From NCBI RefSeq assembly GCF_020400825.1, contig NZ_JAINVH010000024.1, forward strand, positions 1-64,000: DNA of 64,000 nt, written 5' to 3'. Origin of the DNA: Streptomyces sp. HPF1205 (GTDB lineage: Bacteria > Actinomycetota > Actinomycetes > Streptomycetales > Streptomycetaceae). The translations under genes and the position numbers were made by a program. Shown here in pieces: positions 18,571 to 50,917 of this stretch. Numbering within the stretch: the stretch's first letter is position 1; each line of letters starts with the position of its first letter. The notes under the pieces were generated by a model that searched no databases, was not told the origin of the DNA, and saw nothing but the letters and a program-made list of their open reading frames with translations.

Positions 18571-18677
18571 ACCGAGGCGAGCACCGGCCGGTCGCGGCAT
18601 CGTTGGGACGGGCCGGTGAGGGTCGGCGCCGGCGAGCGTTCACCGGCCGGCGCTTCCGAGTGGGACGAGGTGGATAC

Positions 18678-28170: not shown

Positions 28171-28276
28171 TCCCCTCGCTCGACGTGTCCGCGGAGCCGG
28201 GTCGGCCGGGTGCCCCGCGGGGTTCCCGCGGGGCCTGGTGCTCGGACCGGCCACGATCGACTCACCACGCGATGAT

Positions 28277-28320
28277 TTCATCGAGTGGGGAGTCTATGTA
28301 TGATGTGGTCGTCCGGTCAA
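28277..28320 (-). promoter_or_regulatory. PKS1 promoter with overlapping operator (site C)
   Basis: Reading the minus strand, TTGACC (28320-28315), an 18-nt spacer and TAGACT (28296-28291) form a good -35/-10 pair. The 16-bp operator-like element at 28277-28292 (TTCATCGAGTGGGGAG on plus) begins inside the -10 box. A bound repressor here would block PKS1, and could also affect the PPTase gene read the other way. Confidence 0.65.
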
Positions 28321-28360
28321 CGACGATTAACCCGGAGTGACGAGCCGACGAGGGGATGCC

Positions 28361-31082: not shown

Positions 31083-32426
31083 TCAGAAGCTCGCCTTCGC
31101 CGTCGGTGCCTTGAGTTCACCGAGGAACGGGCGCCACAGGTGCGTCTCGTCCTGCTCCACCGCGGCGACGACCTCCCGCATGGCGGCCAGGGCCTTGGGC
31201 TCCTCGTCGTCGTACACGTCGCCCTGGAGCATCTTCAGGACGTCCAGCCGGTAGCGCGGATCCTGGACGAAGGCGGTGAACAGGATGTTCAGCCGGTAGT
31301 AGATGGAGATGAACTCGTACCAGTTGTTCACCGCCTTGCGCAGCTTGTTCTCATAGGTGGCGAACCGGGCCTTGGAGAAGTCGCCCGCCTGGTGCGCGGC
31401 GATGATGTCGGCGGCCGCGAGCCGGGCGCTGTTGAGGGCGACGCTCACCCCGCTGGAGAAGATCGGGTCCACGAACCGGGCCGCGTCGCCGACCAGCAGG
31501 AAGTTGTCGCCGGCGATCCGGCTCATGCCGTAGCTGTAGTCGCCCTCGGTCTTGAACGGCCTGACCTGGTCGGCGCGCTTGAGGGCGTCCAGCAGCTCGG
31601 GGCGGCTGGCCACGGTGTCCCAGAAGAACTCCTCGCGGTTGGAGGCGACCTCCTGGAACCGCTTCTTCTGGGTGACGACGCCGATCGAGGTGATGGTGTC
31701 GGTGATCGGGATCTGCCACACCCAGGTGTCGGTGATCGGCAGGAAGTGGATGAAGATGAAGTCGGCCTGGCCCTTGTTGGGGTTGAGCGAGTCCCGGTCG
31801 AAGTTGTCGAACCAGGTGTGGATCGCGTACTGGTTGAAGACCGGGTCGTTGACCTTCACCTTGAGCTGGTTGCCGAGCAGGGTGCGGCGCCCGCTGGCGT
31901 CCACCACCATGCGGGCCGTCACGTCGGTCGTGCGGCCGCCGATCCTGGCCTTCAGCACCGGGAACTCGCCGTCGAAGTCGATCTTGCTGATCCGCACGCC
32001 CTGGTGGACGACGGCCCCCAGGCTCTCCGCGTGCTTGAGCAGGATCAGGTCGAACTTCCCGCGGTCCACGTGGTAGGTGAAGTCGCGGTCCACCCCGGGC
32101 TGGTCGCGCTCCTGGAAGCGGATCTCGGCGGTGCCGAAGCTGTGCGGGCCGACGTTGTAGCCCAGCGGGTTGATCTCGCGGGTCTCGCCGGAGGTCCACG
32201 CGGCGCCGTACTTCTTGGGAAAGCCGGCGGCCTCGACGGCCGGCATGGCGCCGATCTCCAGCAGGACCGGAGTGGTGGCCGTGACCAGGGACTCGCCCAC
32301 GTGCTCACGGGGGAAGTTCTCGGCCTCGAAGACCGCGACCGACAGGCCGGCCTTGGCGAGGTAGGAGGCCGTGGTGGAGCCGGCCGGCCCACCACCGATG
32401 ACCGCTACATCGAAGTCTGTCGTCAC
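31083..32426 (-). CDS. FADH2-dependent pyrrolyl-S-carrier-protein halogenase (PltA-like)
   Basis: The 447-residue flavin halogenase has the FAD motif VIGGGPAGSTTASYLA, the halogenase segment HVGESLVTATTPVLLE and the WxWxIP signature (TWVWQIPITDT). GDAARFVDPIFSSGVSVAL closes the FAD site. Length and sequence type match PltA and its relatives, which put one or two chlorines on pyrrolyl-S-PCP. The preceding gene encodes that carrier protein, 110 bp away. Reduced flavin would come from the reductase at 15.2-15.8 kb. GTG 32426 follows GGAG. It is the only member of this subtype here; the other three belong to a different subgroup. Confidence 0.94.
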   Translation of the reverse strand: MTTDFDVAVIGGGPAGSTTASYLAKAGLSVAVFEAENFPREHVGESLVTATTPVLLEIGAMPAVEAAGFPKKYGAAWTSGETREINPLGYNVGPHSFGTAEIRFQERDQPGVDRDFTYHVDRGKFDLILLKHAESLGAVVHQGVRISKIDFDGEFPVLKARIGGRTTDVTARMVVDASGRRTLLGNQLKVKVNDPVFNQYAIHTWFDNFDRDSLNPNKGQADFIFIHFLPITDTWVWQIPITDTITSIGVVTQKKRFQEVASNREEFFWDTVASRPELLDALKRADQVRPFKTEGDYSYGMSRIAGDNFLLVGDAARFVDPIFSSGVSVALNSARLAAADIIAAHQAGDFSKARFATYENKLRKAVNNWYEFISIYYRLNILFTAFVQDPRYRLDVLKMLQGDVYDDEEPKALAAMREVVAAVEQDETHLWRPFLGELKAPTAKASF

Positions 32427-32536: not shown

Positions 32537-32809
32537 TCAGGCGGCCAGCAGTTCGGCGACGAGGCCACTGATGCTCTCCAGGTCTCCGAAGTACTTGCCG
32601 GTGATGCGGGTCGGCGGCACGGAGACCCCGAACTCCTCGTGGATGTACGCCAGGAGCCGTCCGGTGTTGCGGGAGTTGAGAATCCCCAGCTGCAGCAGCG
32701 GCGTGGTCCCGTCGAGCTGGGAGTCGCCGTCGATGTCGTCCAGGAAGTTCTGGCGCACGTACTCGGTGATCTTCAGGAGAATCTCTCCCTCACTCACGGC
32801 GGTCGTCAC
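32537..32809 (-). CDS. Free peptidyl carrier protein for proline/pyrrole (PltL-like)
   Basis: The 90-residue carrier protein has the phosphopantetheine Ser in LLQLGILNSRNTGRLLAYI. The residue before Ser is Asn instead of the usual Asp. Its helix pattern and length match the stand-alone carriers on which proline is loaded, oxidised to pyrrole and chlorinated before transfer to the PKS. GTG 32809 follows GGAGG at close spacing. It is the first gene of the carrier-halogenase transcript, behind a promoter with an operator-like element. Confidence 0.92.
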   Translation of the reverse strand: MTTAVSEGEILLKITEYVRQNFLDDIDGDSQLDGTTPLLQLGILNSRNTGRLLAYIHEEFGVSVPPTRITGKYFGDLESISGLVAELLAA

Positions 32810-33745: not shown

Positions 33746-33808
33746 ACTAGCCAGCGAATAACTTGACGGCTATCGATCGGCACCCTAGAGTCGGTTTCGA
33801 CGCTAGCC
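33746..33808 (+). promoter_or_regulatory. MFS promoter with CTAGCC repeats
   Basis: TTGACG (33763-33768), a 17-nt spacer and TAGAGT (33786-33791) form a strong promoter for the pump gene. TAGCC (33748) and GGCTA (33768-33772) make an inverted repeat over the -35 box, and CTAGCC recurs at 33803. These are likely operator sites for the divergent MarR protein. Confidence 0.65.
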
Positions 33809-33849
33809 GGCAACTGATGTTCTCTCGTCCCCAGCCAGGAGGCAACGTA

Positions 33850-35376
33850 ATGAGCTCACCCAGCGCGCCACCGGGGGCCCCGGCGGCCGGCCTGGATCCA
33901 CGTCGCTGGACCATGCTGATAGTCGCCCTGGTGGCCATGTTCATGGCGATCTTTGACTTCTACGTCATCAACATCGCCACTCCCTCCTTGCAGTCGCAGC
34001 TCCACATCGGCGAGGCCACCCTCGAACTGATCATCGGCGGCTACACCTTCACGTACGCCAGCCTGCTGGTGACCAGCGGGCGCTGGGGCGACATCTTCAG
34101 CTACAAGCGGCTGTTCATGCTCGGCATGGGCCTGTTCACGGTCGCCTCGCTCGGCTGCGGCGTCGCGCAGAACGGCACTCAGCTCGTCATCGTCCGGCTG
34201 ATCCAGGGCATCGGCGCGGCACTCATGGTGCCGCAGGTGGTCGCCTTCATCACGGTGACCTTCCCGCCGCCGGAGCGGCCCAAGGCGCTGTCCTGGTTCG
34301 GCGCCACGGTCGGCCTGGCCGTCGTCGCCGCGCAGATCCTCGGCGGGGCTCTGCTGTCCGCCAACGTGGCCAGCCTCGGCTGGCGGGTCATCTTCCTGAT
34401 CAACATCCCGATCGGCGCGGTCACCCTGCTGCTCGCGGCCCGCCTGCTGCCCGACACCAAGGCAGCGCGCAAGCCCAAGCAGGACGTGGTCGGCAACCTC
34501 GGCATCGCGCTGACCCTGGGCCTGGCCATCCTGCCGATCGTCATCGGCCGCTCCGAGCATTGGCCCGTCTGGGGCTGGATCATGCTGGCCGCCTCGGCGC
34601 CCATCGCGGTCGCCACGGTGATCTACGAGAAGGGGCTGCCGGCCAGGGGCGGCGAGCCGATGCTGGACCTGCGGCTGTTCACCAACCGCTCGTACAGCGT
34701 GGGCGTGCTCACCATCGTCGGCGTGATGACCTTCTACGCCGGGTTCATCTTCGGCATGACGATGTTCCTGCAGTTCGGCCTCGGGCTGTCGCCGGCCAAG
34801 GCCGGTCTGACCTTCGGCCCGATGGGTCTGGGCTTCGCGTTCAGCTCCTTCATGGCCCGCCCGATGCTGATGAAGTACGGCGTCAAGGTGATCAACCTCG
34901 GCCAGGTGCTGCTGGTGCTGAGCACCGTGGTCCTGCTGGTCGAACTGAAGGCCTCGGGTACGGACACCAAGGCGTGGGAGATGGTCATTCCCATGGTCCT
35001 CGGCGGCATGGGCACCGGTGTCACGCTGCCCGCGCTGACCGGTGTGGTGATGTCCAAGGTGCCGCCGCAGCAGGCGGGTGTCGCCTCGGGCCTGCTGTCC
35101 ACCGCGCAGCAGTTCGCCAACACCATCGGTGTCGCGGTCTTCGGCGTGATCTTCTTCAACGCCCTGGGCAGCACCCCGAGCAAGGCCCACTACGTGCACG
35201 CCCTGGAGGTCGTGGGCGGTACCGGGATCGGGCTGAGCCTGGTCACCCTGGCGGCCACCTTCCTGCTGCCGCGCGGTCCGATGGGCCCGCCGCCGGGAGC
35301 CCGCCCGCCGGCCGGCGCTCCGGCCGCGGCCGCACCGGCCGGCGCCGCCTCCGGCGCCACCGCCGACGGCAAGTAG
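33850..35376 (+). CDS. MFS drug exporter, DHA2 (14-TM) type
   Basis: The 508-residue inner-membrane transporter has the DHA2 pattern: FMAIFDFYVINIATPSLQ in helix 1 (motif D1), LVTSGRWGDIFSYKRLF (motif A), RLIQGIGAALMVPQ (motif B) and an antiporter motif C-like segment around GATVGLAVVAAQILGGAL. About 14 helices are visible, then an Ala/Pro-rich cytosolic tail. It would export the cluster product in exchange for protons. ATG 33850 follows AGGAGG. Expression should be controlled by the divergent MarR gene, and an intrinsic terminator follows. Confidence 0.94.
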   Translation: MSSPSAPPGAPAAGLDPRRWTMLIVALVAMFMAIFDFYVINIATPSLQSQLHIGEATLELIIGGYTFTYASLLVTSGRWGDIFSYKRLFMLGMGLFTVASLGCGVAQNGTQLVIVRLIQGIGAALMVPQVVAFITVTFPPPERPKALSWFGATVGLAVVAAQILGGALLSANVASLGWRVIFLINIPIGAVTLLLAARLLPDTKAARKPKQDVVGNLGIALTLGLAILPIVIGRSEHWPVWGWIMLAASAPIAVATVIYEKGLPARGGEPMLDLRLFTNRSYSVGVLTIVGVMTFYAGFIFGMTMFLQFGLGLSPAKAGLTFGPMGLGFAFSSFMARPMLMKYGVKVINLGQVLLVLSTVVLLVELKASGTDTKAWEMVIPMVLGGMGTGVTLPALTGVVMSKVPPQQAGVASGLLSTAQQFANTIGVAVFGVIFFNALGSTPSKAHYVHALEVVGGTGIGLSLVTLAATFLLPRGPMGPPPGARPPAGAPAAAAPAGAASGATADGK

Positions 35377-35737: not shown

Positions 35738-37087
35738 ATGAGCAATCATCAGGCGGACATACTCCAGGCGACCGTGCTCGCCGACATCGGCCTCGTACTG
35801 GTGGTCGGGGCGTTACTACTGAAGCTCTGCCGCTGGGGCCGGCAGCCGGTGGTCGTGGGCGAGATCGTGGCCGGGATCGCGCTGGGACCCAGCCTGCTCG
35901 GTCTGCTGCCGGGCCATCCGACCTCCCGGCTGTTCCCGGCGGACGGACGGCCGTACCTGTCGGCGATCGCCCAGGTGGGGCTGCTGCTGTTCATGTTCCT
36001 GCTGGGCTGGGAACTGGAGCCCGCCAACCTGGGCCGGTCCAAGAGCTCCGTGGCCGCGGTGACGCTGGGCAGCATGGCGCTCCCGTTCGCGCTCGGCCTC
36101 GGGGCCGCCGCCGTCATCTACCACGAGCACAGCACGGTCGACGGCCGCCATGTGAGCTTCGGCGTGTTCGGCGTGTACGTCGGCATCTCCATGGCCATCA
36201 CGGCCTTCCCCGTGCTGGCCCGCATCCTGGCCGACCACCACCTGGGCGGCACCCGCATCGGCGCCCTCGCACTGGCCAGCGCCGCCGTCGGCGACGTGCT
36301 GGCGTGGTGCGCGCTCGCCGTCATCGTCGGCGCCACCACCTCCAGCGGCATGGGCCAGTTCGCCACCACCACCGGCGGCGCGGCGGTCTACGTGGTCGTG
36401 CTGGCCGGCGTGGTGCGCCCGCTGCTGCGCCTGGGTGTGGACCGGGCGCTGCGCCGCGGGGGCGGCGCCCAGGGCCCCGCGCTGTACACCGCGGGCCTGG
36501 TCGCGGCCGGGATCTTCTTCTCCTCGTACGCCACCACGCGCATCGGCATCCACCCGGTCTTCGGTGCCTTCGCCTTCGGCCTGGTCATGCCGCGCGAGCC
36601 GCGCCGCGAACTGGAGCAGTACATGTTCCGCCCCTTCCAGGGGATCAGCCGGGTGCTGATGCCGGTGTACTTCGTGGTGACGGGGCTCGCGGTGGACATC
36701 AGCGGGCTGCGCGGCCGGGACTGGAGCGACCTGGCGCTGCTGGTCGCGGTGGCCTGCGTCGGCAAGGTGCTCGGCGCCGGTGTGCCGGCCCGGCGGCTGG
36801 GCATGTCCCGCCGCGACTCGGTGGGCGTCGGCGTGCTGATGAACGTGCGCGGCCTGACCGAACTGATCATCCTCAACATCGGGCTGAGCCTGCACGTCCT
36901 GGACGACCGGCTGTTCACCGTGATGGTCCTGGTGGCGCTGCTGACGACCGCGCTGGCCGGACCGCTGCTCCCGGTGCTGCTGCCCCGGCCGCCCGGCGAC
37001 CGCGACGCCACCGCGCCCGGCGCCCGTACGGCGGCGGGCTCCCCGGGCGCCACCGGCCGCAGCAACGACCTGTCGGCCACCGGCTGA
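35738..37087 (+). CDS. Kef-type Na+(K+)/H+ antiporter (CPA2 family)
   Basis: The 449-residue membrane protein has 12-13 helices and CPA2 features: QPVVVGEIVAGIALGPSLLG at the start, SMAITAFPVLARIL for helix 5 and ASAAVGDVLAWCALA with the ion-binding Asp. It ends in a short polar tail with no RCK/TrkA-N domain. It exchanges monovalent cations for protons. Found inside a cluster for a chlorinated phenolic pyrrole, it may protect the producer from a protonophore. Two operator-like elements precede ATG 35738, so it appears co-regulated with biosynthesis. Confidence 0.93.
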   Translation: MSNHQADILQATVLADIGLVLVVGALLLKLCRWGRQPVVVGEIVAGIALGPSLLGLLPGHPTSRLFPADGRPYLSAIAQVGLLLFMFLLGWELEPANLGRSKSSVAAVTLGSMALPFALGLGAAAVIYHEHSTVDGRHVSFGVFGVYVGISMAITAFPVLARILADHHLGGTRIGALALASAAVGDVLAWCALAVIVGATTSSGMGQFATTTGGAAVYVVVLAGVVRPLLRLGVDRALRRGGGAQGPALYTAGLVAAGIFFSSYATTRIGIHPVFGAFAFGLVMPREPRRELEQYMFRPFQGISRVLMPVYFVVTGLAVDISGLRGRDWSDLALLVAVACVGKVLGAGVPARRLGMSRRDSVGVGVLMNVRGLTELIILNIGLSLHVLDDRLFTVMVLVALLTTALAGPLLPVLLPRPPGDRDATAPGARTAAGSPGATGRSNDLSATG

Positions 37088-37138
37088 CCGGCGCGGCACC
37101 GGCCGGACGGGGCCGGGCCGGGCCGGGCCGGACACGAA

Positions 37139-37173
37139 GCGTGCCCCGGGCGCTGGGACCGCCCGGGGCACGC
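37139..37173. terminator. 14-bp stem hairpin between antiporter and halogenase operon ends
   Basis: GCGTGCCCCGGGCG, a 7-nt loop and its perfect complement lie between two convergent stop codons and can serve both. Confidence 0.85.
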
Positions 37174-37194
37174 TGCTGTGGGTCGCCGAGACCG

Positions 37195-38850
37195 TCAGTG
37201 GACGGCCGGCGGCGGCACGTTGGTCAGGTTCTCCTTGGTGAGCATGGTGCGGAACTCGGCCGGGGCGATGGTCTTGGTCCAGGCGAGCGCCTTGAGCCGC
37301 TTGCTGAGGGTGAAGTGGTAGAAGCGGTCGTCGGGGTCGGCGAAGCCGTACAGCGGCGGGGTGAACGGCGCCTCTTCCAGGGCCTTCCAGATCCGGTCGG
37401 CGGCCGCGCCCGTGGTGAGCCGGCCCTCACGCACCTCCTCGGTCCACGCGAAGGTCTGCTCCAGCAGCTCCGGCAGGCCGCCCGGCAGGGCGAACCAGAA
37501 CGCGCCGTCGTGCCGCCGCTCCGTGCGGCTCCAGTCGCCGTCGCCGAGCGCGTGGTTGCGGTTGCTCTTCAGCGACAGCGCGCCCAGCATCGACCACAGC
37601 AGCCACACCCGGCTGAAGGCGTTCCACAGCCGGAAGTCGCGGGTGGCGACCCGGGCCGCGGCGATGATGCGGTCGTTGAAGGCGATCAGCTCGGACTGGA
37701 AGGCGGCCACCTGCGCGAACCGCTGCGGCGACCAGTCGTCGGTGCGCGCCGCCTCCACCAGCACCGGCGCGAGGGCGTAGACCATCTCGCCGGCCATCGT
37801 GACGTCCCGCGACAGGAAGAAGTCGTTGCGGCTGGCCGAGCGCTCGAACAGGAAGTGCCGGTTGCCGACGGTCTCGGCGACCGTGCGCTGCCAGAGGATG
37901 TCCTCGGTCCACGGCGTCGTGGCCACGGCGCCGGAGAACGTCTCCCGCAGCTGCGGGAACCGGTCGATCAGCGCGCGGAAACCGGCCTCGGGGTCCTTCG
38001 GCAGGTCGCTGAAGGCATCGGGGTCGACGCTGACGGTGACCGAGGCCCGCGCGGTGCCCGCCTCGGCGTGGTTGTCGAAGTGGACGACCTGGATCCAGCC
38101 GCCGTCGAACAGGTGGCTGATGGTGCCCTGCGACCAGGGGGCCGCCTTGGGGTAGTCGGACAGCGGGACCCGGTCCTCGAACTGCTGGACACCGCTGAAG
38201 TGGGCCGTCATCACCCTGGAGCGGGTGCGCAGGCGCGCCACCGGGTCGGGGCCGCCGAGCTTGGCGATGATGGGCGAGTCCATGCCGATCGAGTCCACCA
38301 GGTAGCGGGCCCGGTAGCTCGCCCCGTCCGCGGTGGTGACGCTGACGCCGTCCCCGCCGGGCAGCGGGGCCATCCGGCTCATCACCCGGCGGTGCCTGGG
38401 CACCTTGGCGCCGTAGGCGCGGGCCACCTCATGGGCGTACGCGTCGACGTCCGGGCGGAACATGTGCCACTCGGAGTGCTCGCCGGGCACGTTGAACTGG
38501 ACGCTGTGCTCGGGGTTCTGCGCGCGCCCGGCCCGGTGGTACAGGAAGCTGAGGCTGCGCTTGACACCGCTGGTGCGCCGGACCCGGTCGGGCAGGTCGC
38601 AGGTCAGGCCGAATGCGGCGAGCTCGGGCATGTCGAACCGCCGGGCCAGGGTGAAGAACACCTCGGCCGTGTAGGGAACGGTGGTCTCCCCCGCCGGGAC
38701 GGCGCCGTCGGCCTCGCTGTCCACCAGCAGGACGCGCAGCCCGTGCCGGGCCAGGACGGCGGCCAGCAGGTTCGACGCGAGATGAGCGCCGACGAGGGCG
38801 ACGTCGTACTTCTCCTCGGGGTCGGCGAATTGCTGCCGGCCGTCGTCCAT
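37195..38850 (-). CDS. FAD-halogenase homologue with degenerate FAD motif (PltD-like?)
   Basis: The 551-residue protein is full length and clearly related to the next two genes, yet key motifs are altered. The Rossmann GxGxxG is replaced by VALVGAHLASNLLAAVLA, WxWxIP by GGWIQVVHFDN, and GEST(I)P by GETTVPYTAEVF. It may not bind FAD in the normal way and may act as a non-catalytic partner. The pyoluteorin cluster also has an essential but apparently inactive halogenase homologue, PltD. ATG 38850 follows GGAGG. It is the last gene of the PKS2 operon, 159 bp after the previous one, ahead of a strong terminator. Confidence 0.9.
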   Translation of the reverse strand: MDDGRQQFADPEEKYDVALVGAHLASNLLAAVLARHGLRVLLVDSEADGAVPAGETTVPYTAEVFFTLARRFDMPELAAFGLTCDLPDRVRRTSGVKRSLSFLYHRAGRAQNPEHSVQFNVPGEHSEWHMFRPDVDAYAHEVARAYGAKVPRHRRVMSRMAPLPGGDGVSVTTADGASYRARYLVDSIGMDSPIIAKLGGPDPVARLRTRSRVMTAHFSGVQQFEDRVPLSDYPKAAPWSQGTISHLFDGGWIQVVHFDNHAEAGTARASVTVSVDPDAFSDLPKDPEAGFRALIDRFPQLRETFSGAVATTPWTEDILWQRTVAETVGNRHFLFERSASRNDFFLSRDVTMAGEMVYALAPVLVEAARTDDWSPQRFAQVAAFQSELIAFNDRIIAAARVATRDFRLWNAFSRVWLLWSMLGALSLKSNRNHALGDGDWSRTERRHDGAFWFALPGGLPELLEQTFAWTEEVREGRLTTGAAADRIWKALEEAPFTPPLYGFADPDDRFYHFTLSKRLKALAWTKTIAPAEFRTMLTKENLTNVPPPAVH

Positions 38851-38898
38851 CGTGCTCCTCCAGTGGTGAGTCGCTGACGAGCTGACTTGGGATGACCG

Positions 38899-38930
38899 GG
38901 CCGGCCGTCCCGCTGTGCGGGCGGCCGGCC
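38899..38930 (-). terminator. Intercistronic hairpin in the halogenase operon
   Basis: A GC-rich stem of about 14 bp with one bulged base and a TGT loop sits between two halogenase genes. It could be a partial terminator or an mRNA processing/stability element that lowers expression of the last gene. Confidence 0.45.
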
Positions 38931-39009
38931 GGGGGTGCGGGCGGGCGGGACCGGCGGGACCGGCCGCGCTCGGCCGGCCGGTACCGCCGCCACTGCCCCG
39001 CCGCGCCGG

Positions 39010-40701
39010 TCAGAACAGCTTCTTGCCGCGCAGCCGGGACTTGATCGCCGCGCGCATGTTCGCGGTGAGCATGCGGGCCACCTGCGGGTCGCCCTCCTTC
39101 GCCGCCCACCGCACCAGGTTGAGCATGTTGCGGGGCGAGGGGATGATGAACTTCACGTCGCGCTCGGCCAGGCCGAAGCCCTTGGGGAAGTAGTCGGCCC
39201 GCTGGATCTCCTCGTACAGCAGGTCGGTGGCGTCGGCCGCGGTGGTGGCGCCCGCCTCGACCGCGTCGGTCTGCTTGACCATCAGGTTGTGCAGCTCGGC
39301 GAAGCCGTCGTTGTCGGGCCAGTACAGGCCGACGTGCGGCACGTCCTCCAGCGCGGTGAAGTGGTCGTCGCGGCCGTCCTCGCGGAATTTGGTCAGCGCC
39401 TCCTGCATGCGGTAGGTGCCGGCGTTGGCGCCCCAGCCCCAGATGCGGAAGACCGCGGACCACAGGCCGTAGTCCTGCCAGGAGATGAAGGCCGCGTTGA
39501 CCAGCTCGTCGTTGCAGTCGAGCATCGTCTGCTGCAGGCGGTCGACGTGCTGGAACCGCTCGCCCGAGAAGTCGTCGTCCTTCACGGCCCGCATCAGCCG
39601 CCAGGCCAGCACGTTGACCGCCTCGGCGGTGTTGGACAGGCCGCGCGAGAACAGCGGGTCGATGAACCCGGCCGCGTGGGACAGCAGGCACCAGCGGTCG
39701 CCCGCGGTGGCCTTCGAGGAGTACTGCAGCCGGTCGGTGGAGATCCACTCGCGCACCGGGACGCAGCCCTCGTACTGCCGGGCGATGTCCGGGAAGGGCG
39801 CGCACAGGCGGGCGAAGTCCTCCTCCGGGCTCATGCCGGGGATCTTGGGGTACTTGCGCGGGTCCACGGTCATACCGATGCTGCACAGCGGGTTCGTGGA
39901 CCACTTGTTGTTGTCGAAGGCGATGACCCACGCCCAGCCGCGCTCGAACATGTGGTGGACGGTGCCCTCGTACCACGGCGTCGGGGGCTTGAGGTCGTCG
40001 TTGATGTGGGTGAACAGCTCGTCGGTGCGCTTGACGTTGAGGGCGTGGTTCCACATGGACCGCGAGTGGTGCTTGAAGCGGACCGGGTCCTCGCGCAGGT
40101 CCAGCTTCGTCGCCAGCGGCGAGCGGAAGCCGGAGGCGTCCACGATGTAGCGGGCCCGGAACTGGCCGCGCTTGCCGCTGAGGGTGACGCCGGAGCCGTC
40201 GAAGTCGACGTCGTCGACGATGAAGTTCTGCCGGATCTTGGCCCCGTACTTGGCCGCGACCTGGAACAGGTAGTAGTCGACGTCCTGGCGGAAGTAGTGC
40301 GCCGCCTCGTGGAGCACCTGCGGCGGGGTGCCGAACTCGTTGACCTCCAGCGGGTTCTGCGGGGCCCCCTCGTGGTGCAGCAGGAAGCCGAAGTGCCGCT
40401 TGATGCCGAACCGCGGGCCGAGCGCCTTGGTGGTGTCGGTGAACGAGGCGAGGGCGGCGATCTCGGGTACGTCGTAGCGCTCAGCCAGCGTGCGCAGCGT
40501 GAGCAGGGTGTACGGGATCGTCGACTCGCCGATCGAGAACCTGGGGTGCTGGCCGCCGTCCAGGAGCAGGGTGTTGACGCCCTGCCGGGCCAGGATGGCG
40601 GCGAGCATCGAGCCCGCCATGCCCGAACCCAGGATCGCCACGTCGTAGGTGACAGCCTCCGACGGTCCGGTGTCCATGCCGAGTTCCGTAGCTGTGGTCA
40701 C
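39010..40701 (-). CDS. FAD-dependent halogenase homologue (PltM/Mpy10-Mpy11 subgroup)
   Basis: The 563-residue flavoprotein has an intact FAD motif (VAILGSGMAGSMLAAILA), FSIGESTIPYTLLTL and the closing FAD segment LLSHAAGFIDPLFSRGLS. The halogenase signature is WAWVIAFDN, where the Pro of WxWxIP is Ala. Relatives of this longer subgroup chlorinate free phenols (PltM) or drive oxidative bipyrrole coupling (Mpy10/Mpy11). Here it could chlorinate the resorcinol ring or act in coupling, alone or with its neighbour. GTG 40701 follows GAGGAGAGGG. It is third in the PKS2 operon. Confidence 0.92.
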   Translation of the reverse strand: MTTATELGMDTGPSEAVTYDVAILGSGMAGSMLAAILARQGVNTLLLDGGQHPRFSIGESTIPYTLLTLRTLAERYDVPEIAALASFTDTTKALGPRFGIKRHFGFLLHHEGAPQNPLEVNEFGTPPQVLHEAAHYFRQDVDYYLFQVAAKYGAKIRQNFIVDDVDFDGSGVTLSGKRGQFRARYIVDASGFRSPLATKLDLREDPVRFKHHSRSMWNHALNVKRTDELFTHINDDLKPPTPWYEGTVHHMFERGWAWVIAFDNNKWSTNPLCSIGMTVDPRKYPKIPGMSPEEDFARLCAPFPDIARQYEGCVPVREWISTDRLQYSSKATAGDRWCLLSHAAGFIDPLFSRGLSNTAEAVNVLAWRLMRAVKDDDFSGERFQHVDRLQQTMLDCNDELVNAAFISWQDYGLWSAVFRIWGWGANAGTYRMQEALTKFREDGRDDHFTALEDVPHVGLYWPDNDGFAELHNLMVKQTDAVEAGATTAADATDLLYEEIQRADYFPKGFGLAERDVKFIIPSPRNMLNLVRWAAKEGDPQVARMLTANMRAAIKSRLRGKKLF

Positions 40702-40787
40702 GTCGCCCTCTCCTCGTCGATTCTTTGCGTCGTGTTCGGTGGTGCTCACGGGGGTAGCGGGGGCCGCCGCGGTCGCGGGCCGGCGGG

Positions 40788-42467
40788 TCACCGGCGCAGC
40801 CGCGGGAGCAGGTTGCGCAGTCGCTCCTGGACCAGGCCGCCCATGGCGCCGTGCAGCACGTGGCCGACTTCCTCGGGGGCTTCGGAGCCCGCCCATTTGG
40901 CGGCCTGGACCATCTTGGGCGGGGTGACGTAGACGTACCGTTCCTTGGGATCGCCCATCTTGAAGGCCGAGGGCATGTAGTCGGCCTGCTGGAGCACGGC
41001 GAACAGGCGGTCCGCGGCGGTTTTGGGGTCCAGCGCGCCGGTCTCGACCTGCTGGCACAGCTTCACCGCGGTGCCGCACATGTCGTTGAAGCCGTCGCTG
41101 ATGGGGAACGGGGAGCCGGGGTAGCGGGTCTGCTCCAGGTTGCGGAAGACCTCGTCGCGGCCGTGGCCGGCGAACTCGAAGTAGGCGTTCTCCAGGTTCA
41201 GGGCGGCCAGCATGGTGCCCATCGCCCAGGTGCGGAAGACCGCGTTCCACAGGTCGTAGTCGCGGAAGGAGACGAACGAGGTGTAGACGAGGTCGTCGTG
41301 CACGTCGAACAGGCCCTGCTGCAGGTCCTCGACGTACTGGAACCGCTCCATCGCCCAGTCGCCGTCGCGGGAGGCCTCGATCAGCCGCCACGCCAGGGCG
41401 TTGACCACCTCGAAGGAGTTGGTCAGGCCGCGGGAGTAGAGCGGGTCGATGAACCCGGCCGCGTGCGAGGTCAGGCAGAAGCGGTCGCCGATGACCTGCT
41501 TGGAGGAGTACTGCAGCCGGCCGGTGGCCACCCACGGCCGGGCCGCCCTGGCCTCCTTGAACTGCTCGGCCACCGCCGGGAAGCGCCGCAGGAAGGTGTC
41601 GAACTCCTCCTGCGGTCCCATGGCGCCGGCCGGGTGCACCCGCGGGTCGAGCGTGAGGCCCACGCTGCACAGCGGGTTGAGGGAACCCTTGCTGTTGTCG
41701 AAGGGGATCACCCACAGCCAGCCGCCGTCGAAGACGTGGTGCAAGGTGCCGTCGTGCCACCGGCTGGGCTGGCCGTGCCTGCTGCCCGAGTCGGTCTGGT
41801 CGAACGGCTTGACGCCCAGCATGTGCGTGAACACCGAGCGCGAGTGGGTGCGGGCCCGGGTGGGCTCCTCGCGCAGGCTGAGCCGCTCGGCCAGCGGCGA
41901 GCGGAACCCGGAGGCGTCCACGATGTACTCGGCGTGGAACTGCTCGCCGGAGTCGGCGTGCAGCACCACTCCGGTGCCGCCGTCGATGTCGACGTCGGCG
42001 ATCTTCACCCCGGTCCGCGCGTCGGCGCCGTACTTCAGCGCCACGTTGAACATGTAGGCGTCCACGTCCTGGCGGAACAGGTGCGTCTCGGTCTGCAGCG
42101 CGACCGGGAGGACCAGCTGATTGGCCTCGACCGGGTTCTGGGCGAGGCCCGGCCGGTGGTAGACGAACCCGAAGTTCTTCTTCCAGCCGCAGTTGCGGGA
42201 GATGTTGTTGCGGATGTCCTTGTAGGTGGACATGTTCGCGATCTCCGGCACGTCGTAACGCGCCGAGATCAGCCGGACGAGCGCCGAGGTGTACGGGATG
42301 GTCGACTCGCCCACCGCGAACCGCGGATGCAGGCCGGCGTCCACCAGCAGGGTGCGTACGCCGTTGCGGGCGAGCACCGCCGCGAGCATGGACCCGGCGA
42401 TTCCCGCGCCCAGGATCGCCACGTCGTACCGCTGCCCGCCGGCAGGGGCGTCGATGGGGTTGCTCAT
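40788..42467 (-). CDS. FAD-dependent halogenase (PltM/Mpy10-Mpy11 subgroup), canonical motifs
   Basis: The 559-residue enzyme keeps every halogenase hallmark: VAILGAGIAGSMLAAVLA for FAD, FAVGESTIPYTSALV, WLWVIPFDN for WxWxIP and LTSHAAGFIDPLYSRGLT. Of the three paralogues in this operon it is the best candidate for an active phenol halogenase. ATG 42467 begins only 5 nt after the PKS2 stop, with its ribosome site (GGTGAAG) inside the PKS2 coding end, so the two are coupled. The frame stays open far upstream within antisense PKS2 sequence; that part is not coding. Confidence 0.93.
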   Translation of the reverse strand: MSNPIDAPAGGQRYDVAILGAGIAGSMLAAVLARNGVRTLLVDAGLHPRFAVGESTIPYTSALVRLISARYDVPEIANMSTYKDIRNNISRNCGWKKNFGFVYHRPGLAQNPVEANQLVLPVALQTETHLFRQDVDAYMFNVALKYGADARTGVKIADVDIDGGTGVVLHADSGEQFHAEYIVDASGFRSPLAERLSLREEPTRARTHSRSVFTHMLGVKPFDQTDSGSRHGQPSRWHDGTLHHVFDGGWLWVIPFDNSKGSLNPLCSVGLTLDPRVHPAGAMGPQEEFDTFLRRFPAVAEQFKEARAARPWVATGRLQYSSKQVIGDRFCLTSHAAGFIDPLYSRGLTNSFEVVNALAWRLIEASRDGDWAMERFQYVEDLQQGLFDVHDDLVYTSFVSFRDYDLWNAVFRTWAMGTMLAALNLENAYFEFAGHGRDEVFRNLEQTRYPGSPFPISDGFNDMCGTAVKLCQQVETGALDPKTAADRLFAVLQQADYMPSAFKMGDPKERYVYVTPPKMVQAAKWAGSEAPEEVGHVLHGAMGGLVQERLRNLLPRLRR

Positions 42468-42472
42468 AAACT

Positions 42473-45400
42473 TCACCAGCCTTGATCGGCCGCGGTACCG
42501 TCCGCGGAGTGGGCGGGTTCCGTGTCGAGGTGGCGTTCCTCGACGCGGGTGAGAAGGAAGGCGGCCCAGAAGTTGGCGTCGGTGGCGAAGAACTCCGGGC
42601 TCTTGATCTCCACCCCGAGGTCCTTGCGGCAGCGGCTGATCAGCTCCATCACCATCAGCGAGTCCAGGCCGAAGTCCAGCAGGTGGAACGGCCCGTCCAG
42701 GTCGGACACCGGTACCCGCAGCAGTTGGGCGAGCTGCTCGCGGACGTAGGTGTCGAGCAGCGCGAGCCGGTCGCCGGGCGCCGCGGCCAGCAGTTCGCCC
42801 AGGATCGCGGCGGCCTCGCCGCCCGCCGCGCCCTCCGGGGGACTGATCTCGATCCGCCGCAGCACCGGGCGCTCGGCGCGGGCCTCCAGGATCGACTTGT
42901 ACGTCGGCCAGTCGGCCGAACACACGACGTGGTGCGTCTCCTCGCTGTCCAGCAGCGCGCTCATCAGCCGCAGCGACTGGGGCGCCGACAGCGGCCGCAG
43001 TCCCGTGGCGGCCAGGAACGCGGCGATCTCGCCGTCGAACAGGGCCGATTCCAGTTCCCAGGACGACCAGGCGATGGTGAGCGCCGAAAGGCCCCGGGAC
43101 CTGCGGTGGTAGGCCAGGCCGTCGAGGAAGGCGTTGCCGGCCGCGTAACTGGTCAGGTGCTGCGAGCCCCAGGTCGCGGCGATGGAGGACAGGCCCAGGA
43201 AGAAGTCCAGGGGCACGTGTTCGGTCGCCTGGTGCAGTGCCCAGCCGCCGAGCACCTTGGGCCGCCACACCTTGTCGTACTCGGGGCGGGAGACCTCGCG
43301 GACGAATTGCGGGCCCGAGACGCCGGCGGCGTGCACCACGCCGGCCAGCGGGGTGTCGGGGTCGGCGGCGAGCCGGCGCACCAGCGCGGTGACGGCCTCC
43401 TGGTCGGCGACGTCGGCGGCGACGACCTCGACCTCCGTGCCGATGCCCTCCAGTTCGCGCACCACCTGGATCCGCTGCTTGACGCCTTCCTTGAGGCGGG
43501 AGTTGTTCCACTTGCGTCGGTCGGGCAGTTCGGTGCGGCCCAGCAGCACCAGCCGTCCGGCGCCGCGCAGCGCCAGCCAGCGGGCCACCTCCTGGCCGAT
43601 GCCGCCGAAGGCGCCGGTGATCAGGTAGCTGCCGTCGGGGCGGACGGCGACCTCGCGCCGCAGTTCGTCGCCGCCTGGGTGACTGGCGACGATCCGCGCC
43701 GCGAGCCGGGCCCCGCCGCGCAGCGCCTGCTGGTCCTCGGCCTCGGTCCACGCCAGCGCCTCGGCCAGCGCGGCCGGGCCGTCCTCGGCGTCCGGGTCGA
43801 GGTCGATGGCGCCGCCCCAGTGCTGCGGGTGCTCCAGGGCGACGACGCGGCCCAGGCCCCACAGCGGTGTGGCGGCCGGGGTGTGCCGGGCCTGGTCGTC
43901 TCCGGTGGCGACGGCACCGCGGGTGACGAGGGTGAGCTTGACCCGCTCGTCGGCCGGCTCGGCCTGGAGCGCCTGGGCCAGGCCGACCGCGAGGAGTTCG
44001 GCCCGGTCGCGGAAGGCCAGCAGCGCCTCGGCGTCGGTGGCGTCGGGGTCCGGGGCGTCCAGACCGGTCAGCAGCACCACGCGGCCGGGCAGGGCGTCGA
44101 GGGGCGCGCCCTGGGCGGCGTGGGCGTCGGCGGCGGCGCGCGCGGTGCGCTCGCGGCGCCAGCGGCCGAGCAGTTCGGTCAGCGCCTCGCGGTGGAGGGC
44201 GCCGTCGGGCTCGTCGCCCGGCCCGCCGGTGGGGGCCGGTACGACCGTCGCGGACGCGCCTGCCTCGTCCAGGGCCGCCGCGAGCGCCTCGGCCATCCCG
44301 CCCGCGTCGGCGATCAGCAGGACGTCGCTGTCGCGCAGTTCGGCCCGCGGGGGCACGTTCTCGGTGTCGGCCGGCTGCCACTCCATGCGGTAGAGCAGCT
44401 CGTCCGGGTCCCGCCACGGCTCGGGTGCCGGGCCGGGCGGCGGGACCGGGATCTCCACGCCGTCCACCGCGCCGAGCCAGCGGCGGGCCTCGTCGTAGAA
44501 GTCGGCGCGGCCGCGGACCGTGCCGTCCGCGCCGGCCTCGGCGGCGGCCCGCAGGTACCGTACGGCGCCGGGCTCGGGGCAGACCGCGTCGGCGATCGTG
44601 CCCGGGCGGGCGGCGGGCGCGGCCTCGTCGCCGGCCGCGGCCCAGGCCACCGCGGCGACGGCCGTGTCCAGCAGGGCGCCGCGGCTCGGCGCCGCGTCCG
44701 CGAGCCGGAGCAGGGCGGCGCCGGCGCCGCGTTCGGCACCCGCCGCGATCCCGGCGAGCGCGGGCGGCAGGCCGGCCGGCGGCCCGGCGGGCTCCGCGTC
44801 CTGTCCGGGGCCGGCGTCCTCGGCGGCGAACGGCACGGGCCGGCGGACCGCCGCGCCGGGGCGGCGGCGGACCCGGCCGCTCAGGTGCAGCCGCCAGGGC
44901 GCGGCCGAGGCCTCCTCGGCGGGCGAGGTGCTGCGCACCTCGAACGTGGCGGCCGTTCCCTCGTCGGAGAGGGTCAGGTGCACGGTGCGCTCGTCCTCCA
45001 GCCACAGCGGCTCGGCGGCCACCACGTCGCCGGCCCCTGCCCAGGCGCCGCCGAGGCCGTCGGCCGCGGCGGTCAGGGCCGCCTCGACGAGGGCGCCGAC
45101 CGTGATCCGCGGGCGCCCCTCGGTCGACTCGTCCGCCTCCTGGCGCAGGCGGGGATCGGCCAGGTCGAGCTGGTACGCGGGCCGCGCGGAGCGCAGCCTG
45201 CGCCCGAGGCCGGGGACCGCCTCGCCGACGGGGGCGGCCTGCGCGGCGGGGGCGGTGGGGAACCAGTACGACTCGCCCTCCCACACGTAGGTGGGCAGCG
45301 GGACCCGGCGGGCGCCGTCGCCCTCGTGGTAGGCGGCCCAGTCGACCGTGGCGCCGCGCAGGTGCAGCGCGCCCAGGGCGGTGGCGACCGACTGCCGGTC

Positions 45401-48097
45401 GTCCAGGCCGCGGCGCAGCGCGGGGACGAAGCGGCAGGCGGCGTCGTCCAGGCCGCGCGAGCCCAGGCCCGACAGCACCGGCTGCGGCCCGATCTCCAGG
45501 AAGGTGCGGAAGGAGTCGTCGTACAGCGTGCGGATGCCGTCGGCGAAGCGGACCGTGCCGGCGGCGTGCCGTACCCAGTACTCGGCGTCGATCTCGCCGG
45601 GGGACACGGCCTTGCCGGTCACGTTGGAGATCAGCGGGATCCGCGGGGCGCGGTACGTGATCGTCCGGGCGACGGCGCGCAGGTCGTCGAGGGCGGGGTC
45701 CATCAGCGGGGAGTGGAAGGCGTGCGAGACCGTCAGCAGACGGTGCTTGATGCCGTCCTTCTCCAGCGCGGCGGTGATGGCGGCGACGTCGGCGGCGGGG
45801 CCGGAGATCACCGTGTCGGCCGGTCCGTTGACCGCGGCGACGGCGACGGTGGCGCGGTGGCCGGCGATCGCCTCCAGCGCCCTGGCCTCGTCGCAGACGA
45901 CGGTCGCCATGACGCCGCCGTCCGGCAGGGCCTGCATCAGCCGGCCGCGTGCGGCGATCAGCCTGCAGGCGTCCGCCAGGTCCATCACGCCGGCCACCGT
46001 GGCCGCGACGATCTCGCCGACGCTGTGGCCCATCAGGGCGGCGGGTACGACGCCCCAGGACTGCCACAGCCGGGCCAGCGCGTATTCGACGGCGAACAGC
46101 GCGGGCTGGGTGTATCCCGTCCGGTGCAGCGGCGAGGACGGGTCGCCGGGCTCGGCGGGGTCGGACGGCGGCAGGGCGAGCAGGTCGGCGAGGGGGCGGT
46201 CCAGCAGCGGGTCGAGGTGGCCGGCCACTTCCTCGATCGCGGCGGCGTAGGCCGGTTCGGCGCGCAGGAGTTCGCCCATCCGCGGGTACTGCGAGCCCTG
46301 GCCGGTGAACAGCCAGGCGACCTTGCGCTGGGTGTGCAGGGCGAGGTTCGCGGTGACGGTGCGGTCCTCGCGGCGGCCGTCGGCGAAGGCGTCGAGGGCG
46401 TCGGCGAGTTCGGCGGTGCCGGAAGCGGCCACCGCGACACCCGTCGGCAGCCGGGAGCGGCCGACGTGCGAGGTCAGGCAGACGTCGGCGAGCGACAGGG
46501 CCGGGTCCTCGCGCAGGGCGGCGGCGTAGCGGCGGGCCAGCGCGTTCAGGGCGGTCGTGCTGCGGGCCGAGAGGGTCAGGACGTGCGTCCCGCGGGCGGC
46601 GCCGGCCGCGGGCCCGCGGGTCGCCCCGCCGGCGGACGCGGCGCGGGGCGGCGGCTGCGAGACGATCGCGTGCGCGTTGGTGCCTGAGGCGCCGAAGCTG
46701 CTGATGGCGCCGATCCTGGCGGGCTTGTCCGCGGGCCAGGGGCGGCGGTCGGTGACGACCTCGATGTCCAGCGCGTCCCAGTCCACGTTGGGGTTGGGCG
46801 CGGTCATGTGCAGGTGCGGGGGGATCTCCTCGTGCTGCAGCGACAGGACCAGTTTGAGCAGCCCGGCCACGCCGGCCGCGGGCTCCAGGTGGCCGATGTT
46901 GGTCTTCACCGAGCCGATCAGCAGCGGGCTGCCGCCGGCGTGGTGCCTGCCCACCACCTGCTGCAGGGCGCGCAGTTCGATCGGGTCGCCGAGCGCGGTG
47001 CCGGTGCCGTGCGCCTCGACGTAGCCGACCTCGGCCGGGTCCGTGCCGGCCTGTTCCAGGGCCGCGCGGATCACCGCCTGCTGGGCCGCCGGGTTGGGCA
47101 CCGAGATGCCGCTGGAGCGGCCGTCGTGGTTGACGGCGGTGCCGCGGACCACGGCCAGGATGTTGTCGCCGGCCTCAAGGGCGTCCGACAGCCGCTTGAG
47201 CACCACGACACCGGCGCCCTCCCCGCGGGCGTACCCGTCGGCGCCCGCGTCGAAGGTCTTGCAGCGCCCGTCGGGTGACAGCGCGCGGAACTTGCTGAGC
47301 AGCACGAAGCTGTACGGGGTCAGCATCAGGTTGACGCCGCCGGCCAGTGCCATGTCGCACTCCCCCAGGCGCAGCGCCTGGCACGCGTCGTGCAGGGCGA
47401 CCAGCGAGGAGGAGCAGGTGGTGTCGACGACCTTGCTCGGGCCCATCAGGCCGAAGGTGTAGGACACCCGGCCGGCGACGAACGACGGTTCGCCGATGAG
47501 CTGGTAGCCGTCCACGTCGCGGATGTCGCCGTACTCCTGGCGGGCGCGGACGTAGTCGGTGGTGGACACCCCGATGAACACGCCGGTCCTGCTGCCTTCG
47601 AGGCTGTCGGGCGCGTATCCGGCGCGCTCCAGTGCCTCCCACACGACCTGGAGCGTCATGCGCTGCTGGGGGTCCATGCCGACCGCCTCGCGCGGCGAGA
47701 TGTTGAACACGCCCGGCTCGAACCGGTCGACCTCGTCGAGGAATCCGCCGCGGATCACGTACGCCTTGCCGGGCGCCTCGGGGTCCGGGTCGTAGAGCTT
47801 CGCGGCGTCGGCGCGGGAGGCGGGGAACTCGCCGGTGGCGTCCACGCCGTCGCGCAGCAGCTCCCAGAAGCCCTCCGGGTCGGTGACGCCGCCGGGCATC
47901 CGGCAGCCCAGGCCGATCACGGCGATCGGTTCCGCGGCGCGTCGTGCGGCGCCGGCCGCCGCCGCGGCGTTCAACTGCTCGATCCGCCGGAGCGCCTCGA
48001 CCAGCAGCCTCCGGTCGCTGCCCGCGCCGCCGCCGGGCCCGGCCTCCGGTGCGGCCGGACGCCCCGGGCTCTGCGCGGGACCACTGTCGCGTGCCAT
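42473..48097 (-). CDS. Type I polyketide synthase PKS2: KS-AT-DH*-KR-ACP
   Basis: This single-module PKS of about 1874 residues begins with a helical docking segment ([17 protein letters not shown]). KS has Cys227 ([11 protein letters not shown]), EAHGTGT and [12 protein letters not shown] has GHSVGE near residue 691 and HAFHSP, both typical of malonyl-CoA. A DH-sized region lacks the HxxxGxxxxP motif. The KR is intact: [14 protein letters not shown] near 1496, the Lys helix [13 protein letters not shown], and SYAAGNAF with Tyr near 1650. ACP has GLDSLMV (Ser near 1812). There is no thioesterase domain. It should do the third extension and reduce the C5 ketone, as PltC is thought to do. ATG 48097 follows GGAGG 10 nt upstream. 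Confidence 0.95.
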
Positions 48098-48139
48098 GAA
48101 CTCTGGACCTCCAGGAAGACGGAACCCACAGTTGACGAC

Positions 48140-48187
48140 TTCAACACTTGATGAACGATGCTCGACGATGCACGAGTGCCGTGTCAA
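48140..48187 (-). promoter_or_regulatory. PKS2 promoter region with operator (site E)
   Basis: On plus, 48140-48155 reads TTCAACACTTGATGAA, 14 of 16 bases matching the ideal palindrome TTCAACACGTGTTGAA. On the minus strand TTGACA (48187-48182), an 18-nt spacer and a weak -10 GAGCAT (48163-48158) lie just upstream, so the operator would cover the start of transcription of the PKS2-halogenase operon. Confidence 0.65.
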
Positions 48188-48249
48188 CGGAGTTTCGGGG
48201 AAAGCGGAAGCGGATTCGGCCACCGGCCCGGGGGCGGGGCATGCCACAG

Positions 48250-48286
48250 GCCTCCGCGTCCGGTGGGGGGGCCGGGACGCGGAGGC
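48250..48286 (-). terminator. Hairpin between P450 and PKS2
   Basis: GCCTCCGCGTCCGG pairs with CCGGGACGCGGAGGC (one extra G). It lies downstream of the P450 gene and upstream of the PKS2 promoter, separating the two transcripts. Confidence 0.7.
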
Positions 48287-48428
48287 ACTGCGGGGTGTGC
48301 GGTTGGTACGGGGCGGCCGGACGGGCCGGCCGGGAAGGGAGTGAGCGGGGACGCGGGGACGGGGAGGACGACGGGGGACGGGCGGGTACGCCGGGGAACG
48401 GGCGCGAACCGGCACGCGGGGGCGCACG

Positions 48429-48557
48429 CTCAGCACCCGGGTCCCGGGCGGGCGAGGACCCTCGCTCAGCACCCGGCTCCGGGACAGGCGGGCCCTCGGC
48501 GCCCAAGTCCCGGGCGGGCGGACCTCAGCGCCCGGCTTCCGGGCGGGCGGCCCTCAG
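48429..48557. repeat. Imperfect tandem repeats downstream of P450 gene
   Basis: About four copies of a 30-36 bp GC-rich unit (CTCAGCACCCGGSTCCGGG followed by CGGGCGG) run from the P450 stop into the intergenic space. The last copy reaches the stop codon itself. Confidence 0.65.
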
Positions 48558-50222: not shown

Positions 50223-50780
50223 TCAGGCGACCTTGCGGCCCGCGAACGCGGCCAGCCGGTCGGCCGGCGAGGCACCCTCGGGAGCGGTCTGCTCGGCCCC
50301 GAAGGGCAGGCCCGCGCGGTCACCGGGGAGCATCATCCGCAGCTGTGCCTCCGCGGCCTCGACCACCGGCTCGGTCAGCTCGATCGTCTGCCCCGTCGAG
50401 TCGGCCAGGTCCCAGCCGTGCACGCTCATCTCGATGACCCGCGTGGTCACCAGGCGCGGCGCCGGACGCTCGCCCATCGGGGTCTGGAACACCTTGTCCA
50501 TCACGCCGTCGGCGGCGAACGCCTCCTTCAGCCCGGCCAGCGAGTCGCGGAACGCCTGCACGGGGTCGTCGCCCAGCACGTCCCCGCCGGCCGGCGCGCC
50601 GCCGCCGGAGACCATGGCGGTGAACATCAGGTTCCCCGACACGACGTGGGCGATCAGCTCCCGCACGGTCCATCCGTCGCACGATGAGGCCTCGGCCAGC
50701 CGGCCGGGCTCCACTCCTCGCAGGACAGCCTCGAAAGCGGCTCCTGCGTCATCAAGCAATCCAAGATTGTTAGCCGTCAC
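50223..50780 (-). CDS. TIGR03086-type mycothiol-dependent metalloenzyme family (DinB fold)
   Basis: The protein of about 185 residues belongs to the actinobacterial DinB-like/maleylpyruvate isomerase N-terminal family. CDGWTVRELIAHVVSGN and VIEMSVHGWDLADSTG carry the histidines expected to bind metal. Members use or act on mycothiol adducts, so a role in detoxifying reactive chlorinated intermediates is possible, but many have no known substrate. The start is uncertain: GTG 50780 fits the family length but lacks a ribosome site. Two operator-like elements (F and A) lie upstream, which ties it to the cluster. Confidence 0.85.
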   Translation of the reverse strand: MTANNLGLLDDAGAAFEAVLRGVEPGRLAEASSCDGWTVRELIAHVVSGNLMFTAMVSGGGAPAGGDVLGDDPVQAFRDSLAGLKEAFAADGVMDKVFQTPMGERPAPRLVTTRVIEMSVHGWDLADSTGQTIELTEPVVEAAEAQLRMMLPGDRAGLPFGAEQTAPEGASPADRLAAFAGRKVA

Positions 50781-50917
50781 AGGATCGGAATCTACCACCC
50801 GTGCAACACCCCAGCAACACTTGCCGATTGGTGCGCGGCGCCGCCGGCACGCCACCGCCCGGGGGGCGTCGGGCCGCGCGACCGGCCGCACACGAGAAGC
50901 CCGGAATCCTGGATGCG

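Follow-up and report, generated by a model that had tools for sequence, protein, structure and literature searches.

A PltD-like halogenase-fold protein, probably an aromatizing dehydratase, beside two predicted flavin-dependent halogenases in a pyrrolic polyketide gene cluster of Streptomyces sp. HPF1205

Introduction

The pyoluteorin gene cluster encodes PltD, a halogenase-like protein for which an aromatizing dehydratase function is reported (Yi et al. 2022, as cited in PMC12670696), and deletion of pltD abolishes pyoluteorin (PMC9395707). McsG, from the pyrrolomycin K/L (mcs) cluster, is like PltD in having none of the flavin-halogenase motifs, and the combination of a PltD-like gene, phenol-type halogenases and a pyrrolic type I polyketide synthase (PKS) in one cluster has already been published for mcs (PMC12670696). 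Halogenase-like proteins also occur as pairs. Mpy10 and Mpy11 are two flavin halogenase-like enzymes of bipyrrole coupling in the marinopyrrole pathway (PMC12942903), and Ams8 and Ams9 of armeniaspirol biosynthesis are predicted to form a heterodimer that was interpreted as a catalyst with an auxiliary subunit; Ams8 has Asn in place of the catalytic lysine, and deletion of ams8 abolishes the armeniaspirol product (PMC13311259). Among halogenases of solved structure, the tetracycline 7-halogenase CtcP is a dimer (PMC12400496), and the phloroglucinol halogenase PltM is a monomer (PMC6424973).

We describe a 64,000-nucleotide stretch of Streptomyces sp. HPF1205 (contig NZ_JAINVH010000024.1, positions 1 to 64,000, forward strand; hereafter the window) in which three halogenase-like open reading frames (ORFs), H1, H2 and H3, follow a PKS gene. 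An earlier note, made from the letters of this DNA, had seen in them a series graded from canonical to degenerate and had suggested a multi-subunit halogenation or coupling complex. The comparisons reported here indicate that the three proteins belong to separate clades and that H3 is probably an enzyme of a known kind, a PltD-like aromatizing dehydratase, rather than a scaffold.

Results and Discussion

Sequence features of the three proteins

The three ORFs are as follows.

40788-42467, minus strand: H1, flavin-dependent halogenase of the CtcP/PltM type; all motifs and the catalytic lysine kept; alternative GTG start at 42476
39010-40701, minus strand: H2, flavin-dependent halogenase-like protein; GxGxxG, lysine, WxW and FxDPxxSxG kept; Ala for the Pro of WxWxIP
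37195-38850, minus strand: H3, PltD-like halogenase-fold protein, probable aromatizing dehydratase

All three share the minus strand and lie downstream of PKS2 (42473-48472). The start of H1 coincides with the PKS2 stop, and the intergenic gaps are 86 nt (H1-H2) and 159 nt (H2-H3). Re-reading of the ORFs and motifs confirmed exactly the tandem arrangement and the motifs that had been noted before, namely GAGIAG and WLWVIP in H1, GSGMAG and WAWVIA in H2, and GAHLAS and WIQVVH in H3. A third motif, Fx.Px.Sx.G, described as lining the tunnel between the flavin and the halogenation site (PMC8407142), reads GFIDPL[YF]SRGL in H1 and H2 versus SRNDFFLSRDV in H3, and is therefore additionally lost in H3. 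The catalytic lysine is retained in H3, where it aligns with Lys87 of PltM and the lysine of CtcP. H1 thus carries every hallmark of a flavin-dependent phenol halogenase (GxGxxG, WxWxIP, Fx.Px.Sx.G and the catalytic lysine), and H2 carries all of these except a complete WxWxIP.

CtcP is the best solved relative of each protein, with nearly full-length alignments (E 6e-162 for H1, 1.5e-173 for H2 and 1e-74 for H3). PltM is the next, its alignment with H3 covering residues 13-446 of 551 only. CtcP and PltM share the fold with its C-terminal helical region, and their lysine and flavin motifs are kept in H1 and H2; in contrast, the substrates presumably differ, H2 is without the Pro of WxWxIP and H3 is without three motifs. 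Among the NCBIfam matches listed for H1, H2 and H3, none reached its curated cut-off.

Phylogeny and sampling

Relatives were sought in samples of 394 genomes of the family, 391 of the order and 396 of the phylum, with three candidates scored per genome in the family searches; related genomes in the samples are not independent. The motif catalogue has 61 rows; it does not include some genes that tblastn detected, namely the second of three L100 genes and the H1-type partners of L101 and L102. Two genomes, G836 and G891, stand outside it, and their motifs were read separately. The trees were built without L033 and L035, the later two also without PltM and with most H1-like family rows thinned, and the final one without the L089 pair, the L099 partner and L094.

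In these trees H1, H2 and H3 belong to three separate, well-supported clades whose members are set side by side in the window. Each window protein has closer relatives in other genomes than beside it: in BLAST, identity with the Kitasatospora (G117) counterpart is 80% for H1, 77% for H2 and 81% for H3, versus 47% between H1 and H2, 33% between H3 and H1 and 31% between H3 and H2. A gradient of decay from one local duplication is therefore ruled out, and the graded series of the earlier note gives way to three lineages. A row of apparently graded halogenases can thus conceal different jobs. The usual state is given by the 34 catalogued rows that belong neither to H2 nor to H3 or a group related to H3 (H3', below), with GxGxxG intact in 34, WxW in 34, FxDPxxSxG in 33 and the lysine in 31.

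H3 and the related H3' group

H3-like genes were found in 13 genomes, 11 of the 394 in the family sample together with G836 and G891 from the order sample, and the 13 rows form one clade (support 97/96). At E 1e-110, 10 of the 391 order-sample genomes had a match, the own genome included. At E 1e-90, the 396 genomes of the phylum sample gave no match except in the own genome, the 11 other family members listed there being without a match. A plasmid search returned 15 records, none above 35% identity.

None of the 11 catalogued H3 rows has an intact GxGxxG, WxW or FxDPxxSxG (0/11 each), and all 11 keep the lysine. The lysine is also kept in the H3 of G836, and is Asn in that of G891. Residues that are invariant in the 11 rows and present in fewer than 10% of the 47 rows outside H3 and H3' include N120, E124, Q254, R341, D349, K428 and R518. 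The ratio of nonsynonymous to synonymous substitution rates (dN/dS) against the Kitasatospora genes is 0.35 for H3, 0.32 for H1 and 0.42 for H2. Because H3 has conserved residues of its own and a dN/dS of 0.35, it is best read as a maintained protein with changed chemistry.

The predicted structure of H3 fits CtcP with a template modelling (TM) score of 0.88, which places it in the halogenase fold of the PltM/CtcP type. H3 accordingly combines what is characteristic of PltD: the halogenase fold, the loss of the flavin-halogenase motifs and a place in a pyrrolic type I PKS cluster whose product would carry a ring hydroxyl to be lost. PltD of pyoluteorin and McsG of pyrrolomycin K/L are, by description, likewise motif-less halogenase-like proteins of pyrrolic type I PKS clusters. 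Since the dehydration needed for an aromatic ring matches the activity reported for PltD, H3 probably is, by analogy, an aromatizing dehydratase of the same kind. Such a dehydratase is reportedly conserved in other pyrrolic polyketide clusters. In three genomes (G259, G340 and G836) H3 remains beside the PKS, and H2 and its partner sit on another contig.

Four genomes (L062-L065) contain a related group, H3', whose genes come after a different type I PKS gene and an H1-like halogenase gene. The H3' rows keep GxGxx[GA] (4/4) and have lost the lysine, WxW and FxDPxxSxG (4/4 each), with the local motifs WxQ and GRDLY. They share with the 11 H3 rows the Gln for the second Trp, Asp349, Glu124 and Lys428. 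H3 and H3' join at 100/100, at a point where the tree program warns of long branches meeting. These proteins may make up a second dehydratase family with the halogenase fold. The combination of Gln in place of the second Trp of WxWxIP with Glu124 is found in 11/11 catalogued H3 rows, the four H3' rows, G836 and G891; with the loss of RQD and Fx.Px.Sx.G, it offers a first signature for halogenase-fold dehydratases that are annotated as halogenases.

The Ams8/Ams9 pair also consists of one motif-deficient and one intact halogenase-like protein, and the H3 of G891 has Asn at the lysine position, as Ams8 does. Because of this shared Asn and the loss of product on ams8 deletion, a dehydratase role for Ams8 is worth considering as a guess; however, Ams8 is described as an auxiliary subunit, unlike the role proposed for H3, and a lineage shared with H3 is likewise a guess.

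H2 and its upstream partner

All 12 catalogued H2 rows have Gly or Ala at the Pro position of WxWxIP, versus Pro in 34/34 catalogued rows outside H2, H3 and H3', and the H2 of G836 also has Gly. In the H2 clade as a whole, 13 of the 15 rows are Pro-less; Pro is kept in G372, a row on a long branch that has also lost the lysine, and in G008:C35. The change is old and largely conserved, and does not reflect recent decay within this genome. In all 12 catalogued rows the remaining motifs and the lysine are kept, and F98, T125, W423 and D538 are constant in these rows and rare outside. On sequence grounds, H2 is an otherwise intact halogenase of a Pro-less clade. An altered WxWxIP is also present in two partner proteins outside the catalogue (L089 and L099), which weighs against placing much emphasis on the Pro loss of H2. 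A further run of three halogenase-like genes behind PKS sequence was seen in G372 (L100); in its third member the lysine is replaced by Arg and the SRG motif is disrupted.

Thirteen Pro-less H2 genes were found in 12 genomes. For 12 of them, the gene directly upstream on that strand is of the H1 type; the exception is the second G008 copy (G008:C1), for which the 20 kb retrieved contain no such gene. Nine of these pairs lie inside a PKS cluster, and those of G259, G340 and G836 are on another contig. When the 20 kb stretches of G259 and G340 were compared, the H1-H2 pair was the sole match (ORFs of at least 100 residues, E 1e-20, third-position GC above 0.85), and the H2 partner in both genomes has Leu at the position of the catalytic lysine. 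At the limits used, Pro-less H2 and H3 occur in one and the same set of 11 of the 394 family-sample genomes. G891 has H3, but neither of its 2 matches at E 1e-120 is a Pro-less H2. The partners come from different clades, which rules out a single H1 lineage shared by all clusters with the trio: in seven other trio clusters H1 forms a clade (100/100) that does not include the H1 of the window or of Kitasatospora, and these two are weakly linked (88/36) to the G259/G340 partner.

H1 and H2 are two adjacent flavin halogenase-like genes in one pyrrolic polyketide cluster, as Mpy10 and Mpy11 are by description in marinopyrrole. The genomic pattern is consistent with a functional H1-H2 pair, with one lone H2 copy (G008:C1).

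The surrounding gene cluster

Other genes of the cluster and its neighbourhood are as follows.

42473-48472, minus strand: PKS2, one module of ketosynthase (KS), acyltransferase (AT), ketoreductase (KR) and acyl carrier protein (ACP) domains (Pfam); KR motifs look intact by eye; taken as the last module
19501-28281, minus strand: PKS1, two KS modules with ACPs (Pfam); KR of the second module degenerate
31083-32426, minus strand: PltA/Mpy16-like pyrrolyl-carrier-protein halogenase (P0004); 746 bits with Mpy16, 711 with ChlB4 and 631 with PltA
32537-32809, minus strand: stand-alone PltL-type carrier protein of 90 residues, assigned from its position and serine site (LNS), without a Pfam match at 1e-6
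28337-30148, plus strand: phosphopantetheinyl transferase and thioesterase domains in a single open frame; putative PltG-type release
17255-18736, minus strand: acyl-CoA-dehydrogenase family protein, putative PltE-type prolyl oxidase; ORF start probably too far upstream
16185-17234, minus strand: AMP-binding (adenylation) domain, putative PltF-type role; coordinates are those of the PF00501 match
about 15184-15690, minus strand: flavin reductase, likely supply of reduced flavin adenine dinucleotide (FADH2); start approximate
35738-37087, plus strand: sodium/proton exchanger (PF00999), a cluster neighbour in 10/13 H3 genomes
33763-35376, plus strand: major facilitator superfamily transporter (Pfam)
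48554-49840, minus strand: cytochrome P450, adjoining PKS2; present in the Kitasatospora cluster too
50223-50891, minus strand: gene with a mycothiol maleylpyruvate isomerase N-terminal domain, beside the P450; present in the Kitasatospora cluster too

This gene set is the pyoluteorin/marinopyrrole/pyrrolomycin kit of a pyrrolic type I PKS cluster, so the comparison with pyoluteorin and marinopyrrole drawn in the earlier note is upheld. The window cluster is a further instance of the mcs-type arrangement already in print. The earlier note had not included the fourth flavin halogenase, P0004, or the flavin reductase. The similarity of P0004 to the PltA/Mpy16 type is full-length (residues 4-447 of 447), a carrier protein adjoins it, and its nearest relative among solved structures is Mpy16 of marinopyrrole.

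By eye, the PKS2 KR has both its nucleotide motif and the catalytic Tyr, and the PKS1 KR is without the catalytic Tyr, as are the PKS1-type KRs of G340 and G259. The PKS1 KR stretch finds no match in the Kitasatospora cluster (G117), and an automatic KR motif scan of the other clusters gave nothing usable. Because only the PKS2 KR looks functional, pathway knowledge suggests that the released ring would carry one hydroxyl to lose.

Proposed pathway and alternative explanations

In the proposed pathway, the adenylation domain would load proline onto the carrier protein, the bound proline would be oxidised to pyrrole, and the PltA/Mpy16-like halogenase would dichlorinate it. Three extensions by PKS1 and PKS2 would follow, and the released ring would keep one hydroxyl. 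H3 would then dehydrate and aromatise the ring by means of its halogenase fold, without flavin chemistry. The phenolic product would be chlorinated by H1 with FADH2 from the linked reductase, and H2, together with H1, would either halogenate that same released monomer as well or take part in its oxidative coupling. The gene set, homology, motifs, clades, KR motifs and selection on H3 were computed; the reactions, their order and the cooperation of H1 and H2 are our inference. Taken as a whole, a pyoluteorin/marinopyrrole-type cluster with H3 as dehydratase, H1 as chlorinating enzyme and H2 alongside it is likely.

Several points weigh against this proposal. Besides its Asn for the lysine, the G891 H3 departs from the catalogued rows at N120 (Ala), D349 (Glu) and K428 (Arg), and of the residues checked only E124, Q254 and R341 hold. 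The dN/dS values come from one genome pair with very high third-position GC, and the H3 model has a mean predicted local distance difference test (pLDDT) score of 72 and was built from 7 sequences. H3 is likened to PltD by description, and the state of the KRs, intact-looking in PKS2 and dead in PKS1, is an assignment by eye. The loss of three halogenase motifs might also be taken to mean that H3 is a decaying, functionless halogenase copy, but this is extremely improbable, as the frame is intact, dN/dS is like that of its neighbours, and the gene is present in 13 genomes with its new residues conserved. The multi-subunit complex of the earlier note, in which a single catalytic subunit would be joined by two accessory or scaffolding ones, H3 among them, is in keeping with the operon-like gene run and with the reading of the predicted Ams8-Ams9 heterodimer as catalyst and auxiliary (PMC13311259). 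It is nevertheless improbable, given that H3 has conserved residues of its own, that its gene remains next to the PKS in genomes where H2 and the H2 partner are on another contig, and that PltD is reported to be a dehydratase (PMC12670696). A functional pairing of H1 and H2 has genomic support, and a scaffold role of H3 is not supported.

For H2, it is quite possible, if short of probable, that the protein is an ordinary second phenol halogenase in which the change from Pro to Gly or Ala is neutral. The remaining motifs and the lysine are kept in the 12 catalogued rows, WxWxIP variants are known among halogenases (PMC8407142), two rows of the clade (G372 and G008:C35) retain Pro, and the L089 and L099 partners are altered in the motif too; on the other hand, Pro is present in 34/34 rows outside H2, H3 and H3' versus 0/12 H2 rows, and F98, T125, W423 and D538 are constant in H2 and rare outside. 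Alternatively, H1 and H2 might depend on each other as an obligate pair, possibly a heteromer, and jointly carry out a single reaction, either site-selective chlorination or the N,C-bipyrrole coupling reported for Mpy10/Mpy11, with H3 acting apart from them. This explanation is possible and somewhat doubtful. It would account for the upstream H1-type gene at 12 of 13 Pro-less H2 genes, for the pairs on a contig separate from PKS and H3 in G259, G340 and G836, for the pair being all that the G259 and G340 stretches have in common, for the Leu at the catalytic lysine of the partner in these two genomes, and for the coincidence of Pro-less H2 with H3 in 11 of 394 genomes; CtcP is moreover a dimer (PMC12400496). 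Against it stand the unaccompanied H2 of G008:C1, the H3 of G891 without a Pro-less H2, the mixed ancestry of H1 and the monomeric PltM (PMC6424973), as well as the relatedness of the genomes, the scoring of three candidates per genome and a likeness to Mpy10/Mpy11 drawn by description.

A broader generalisation is unlikely, though we mention it as a direction. H1-H2 would be a two-gene cassette that can lie away from the PKS cluster, and an unequal pair in which H2, with Gly or Ala for Pro, would supply the lysine and the flavin chemistry while the partner may drift, even to the loss of its lysine (G259 and G340). Such a cassette could serve generally for coupling or site-selective halogenation, and H3 with the lysine-less H3' would form a wider family of halogenase-fold dehydratases, with Ams8 possibly included. 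A literature search that covered few subscription papers found neither the Pro-less H2 clade nor an unlinked H1-H2 pair in the portions available, and the accessible parts of PMC10204065 and PMC11411704 cite Yi et al. (2022) and contain nothing on H1-H2. The Pro-less H2 clade with its partner is a testable pair and the part of this work that is worth pursuing further.

Other observations

Scans of 36900-49000 gave no promoter-like site (0.2 expected) and three terminator-like sites (2.8 expected), and both are uninformative. The Kitasatospora cluster aligns with the transferase/thioesterase frame at 28337-30148 across about its entire length. A mycothiol adduct of pyrrolomycin has been reported (PMC12670696).

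In G836 and in 9 of the 11 family-sample H3 clusters (all but those of G259 and G340), a sodium/proton exchanger gene lies no more than about 6 kb from H3. Pyrrolomycins and marinopyrroles have been reported to act as protonophores (PMC12670696), so the exchanger could be a means of self-protection. Elsewhere, a pyrrolnitrin-like operon on the Azotobacter salinestris plasmid NZ_CP045303.1 (L060; typed conjugative) carries a cation:proton antiporter gene. The HPF1205 genome itself has four further CtcP/PltM-type halogenase genes off this contig (L003, L005, L006 and L007; contigs C112, C152 and C1), and the C1 stretch, with two such genes, also holds a sodium/proton exchanger (L075).

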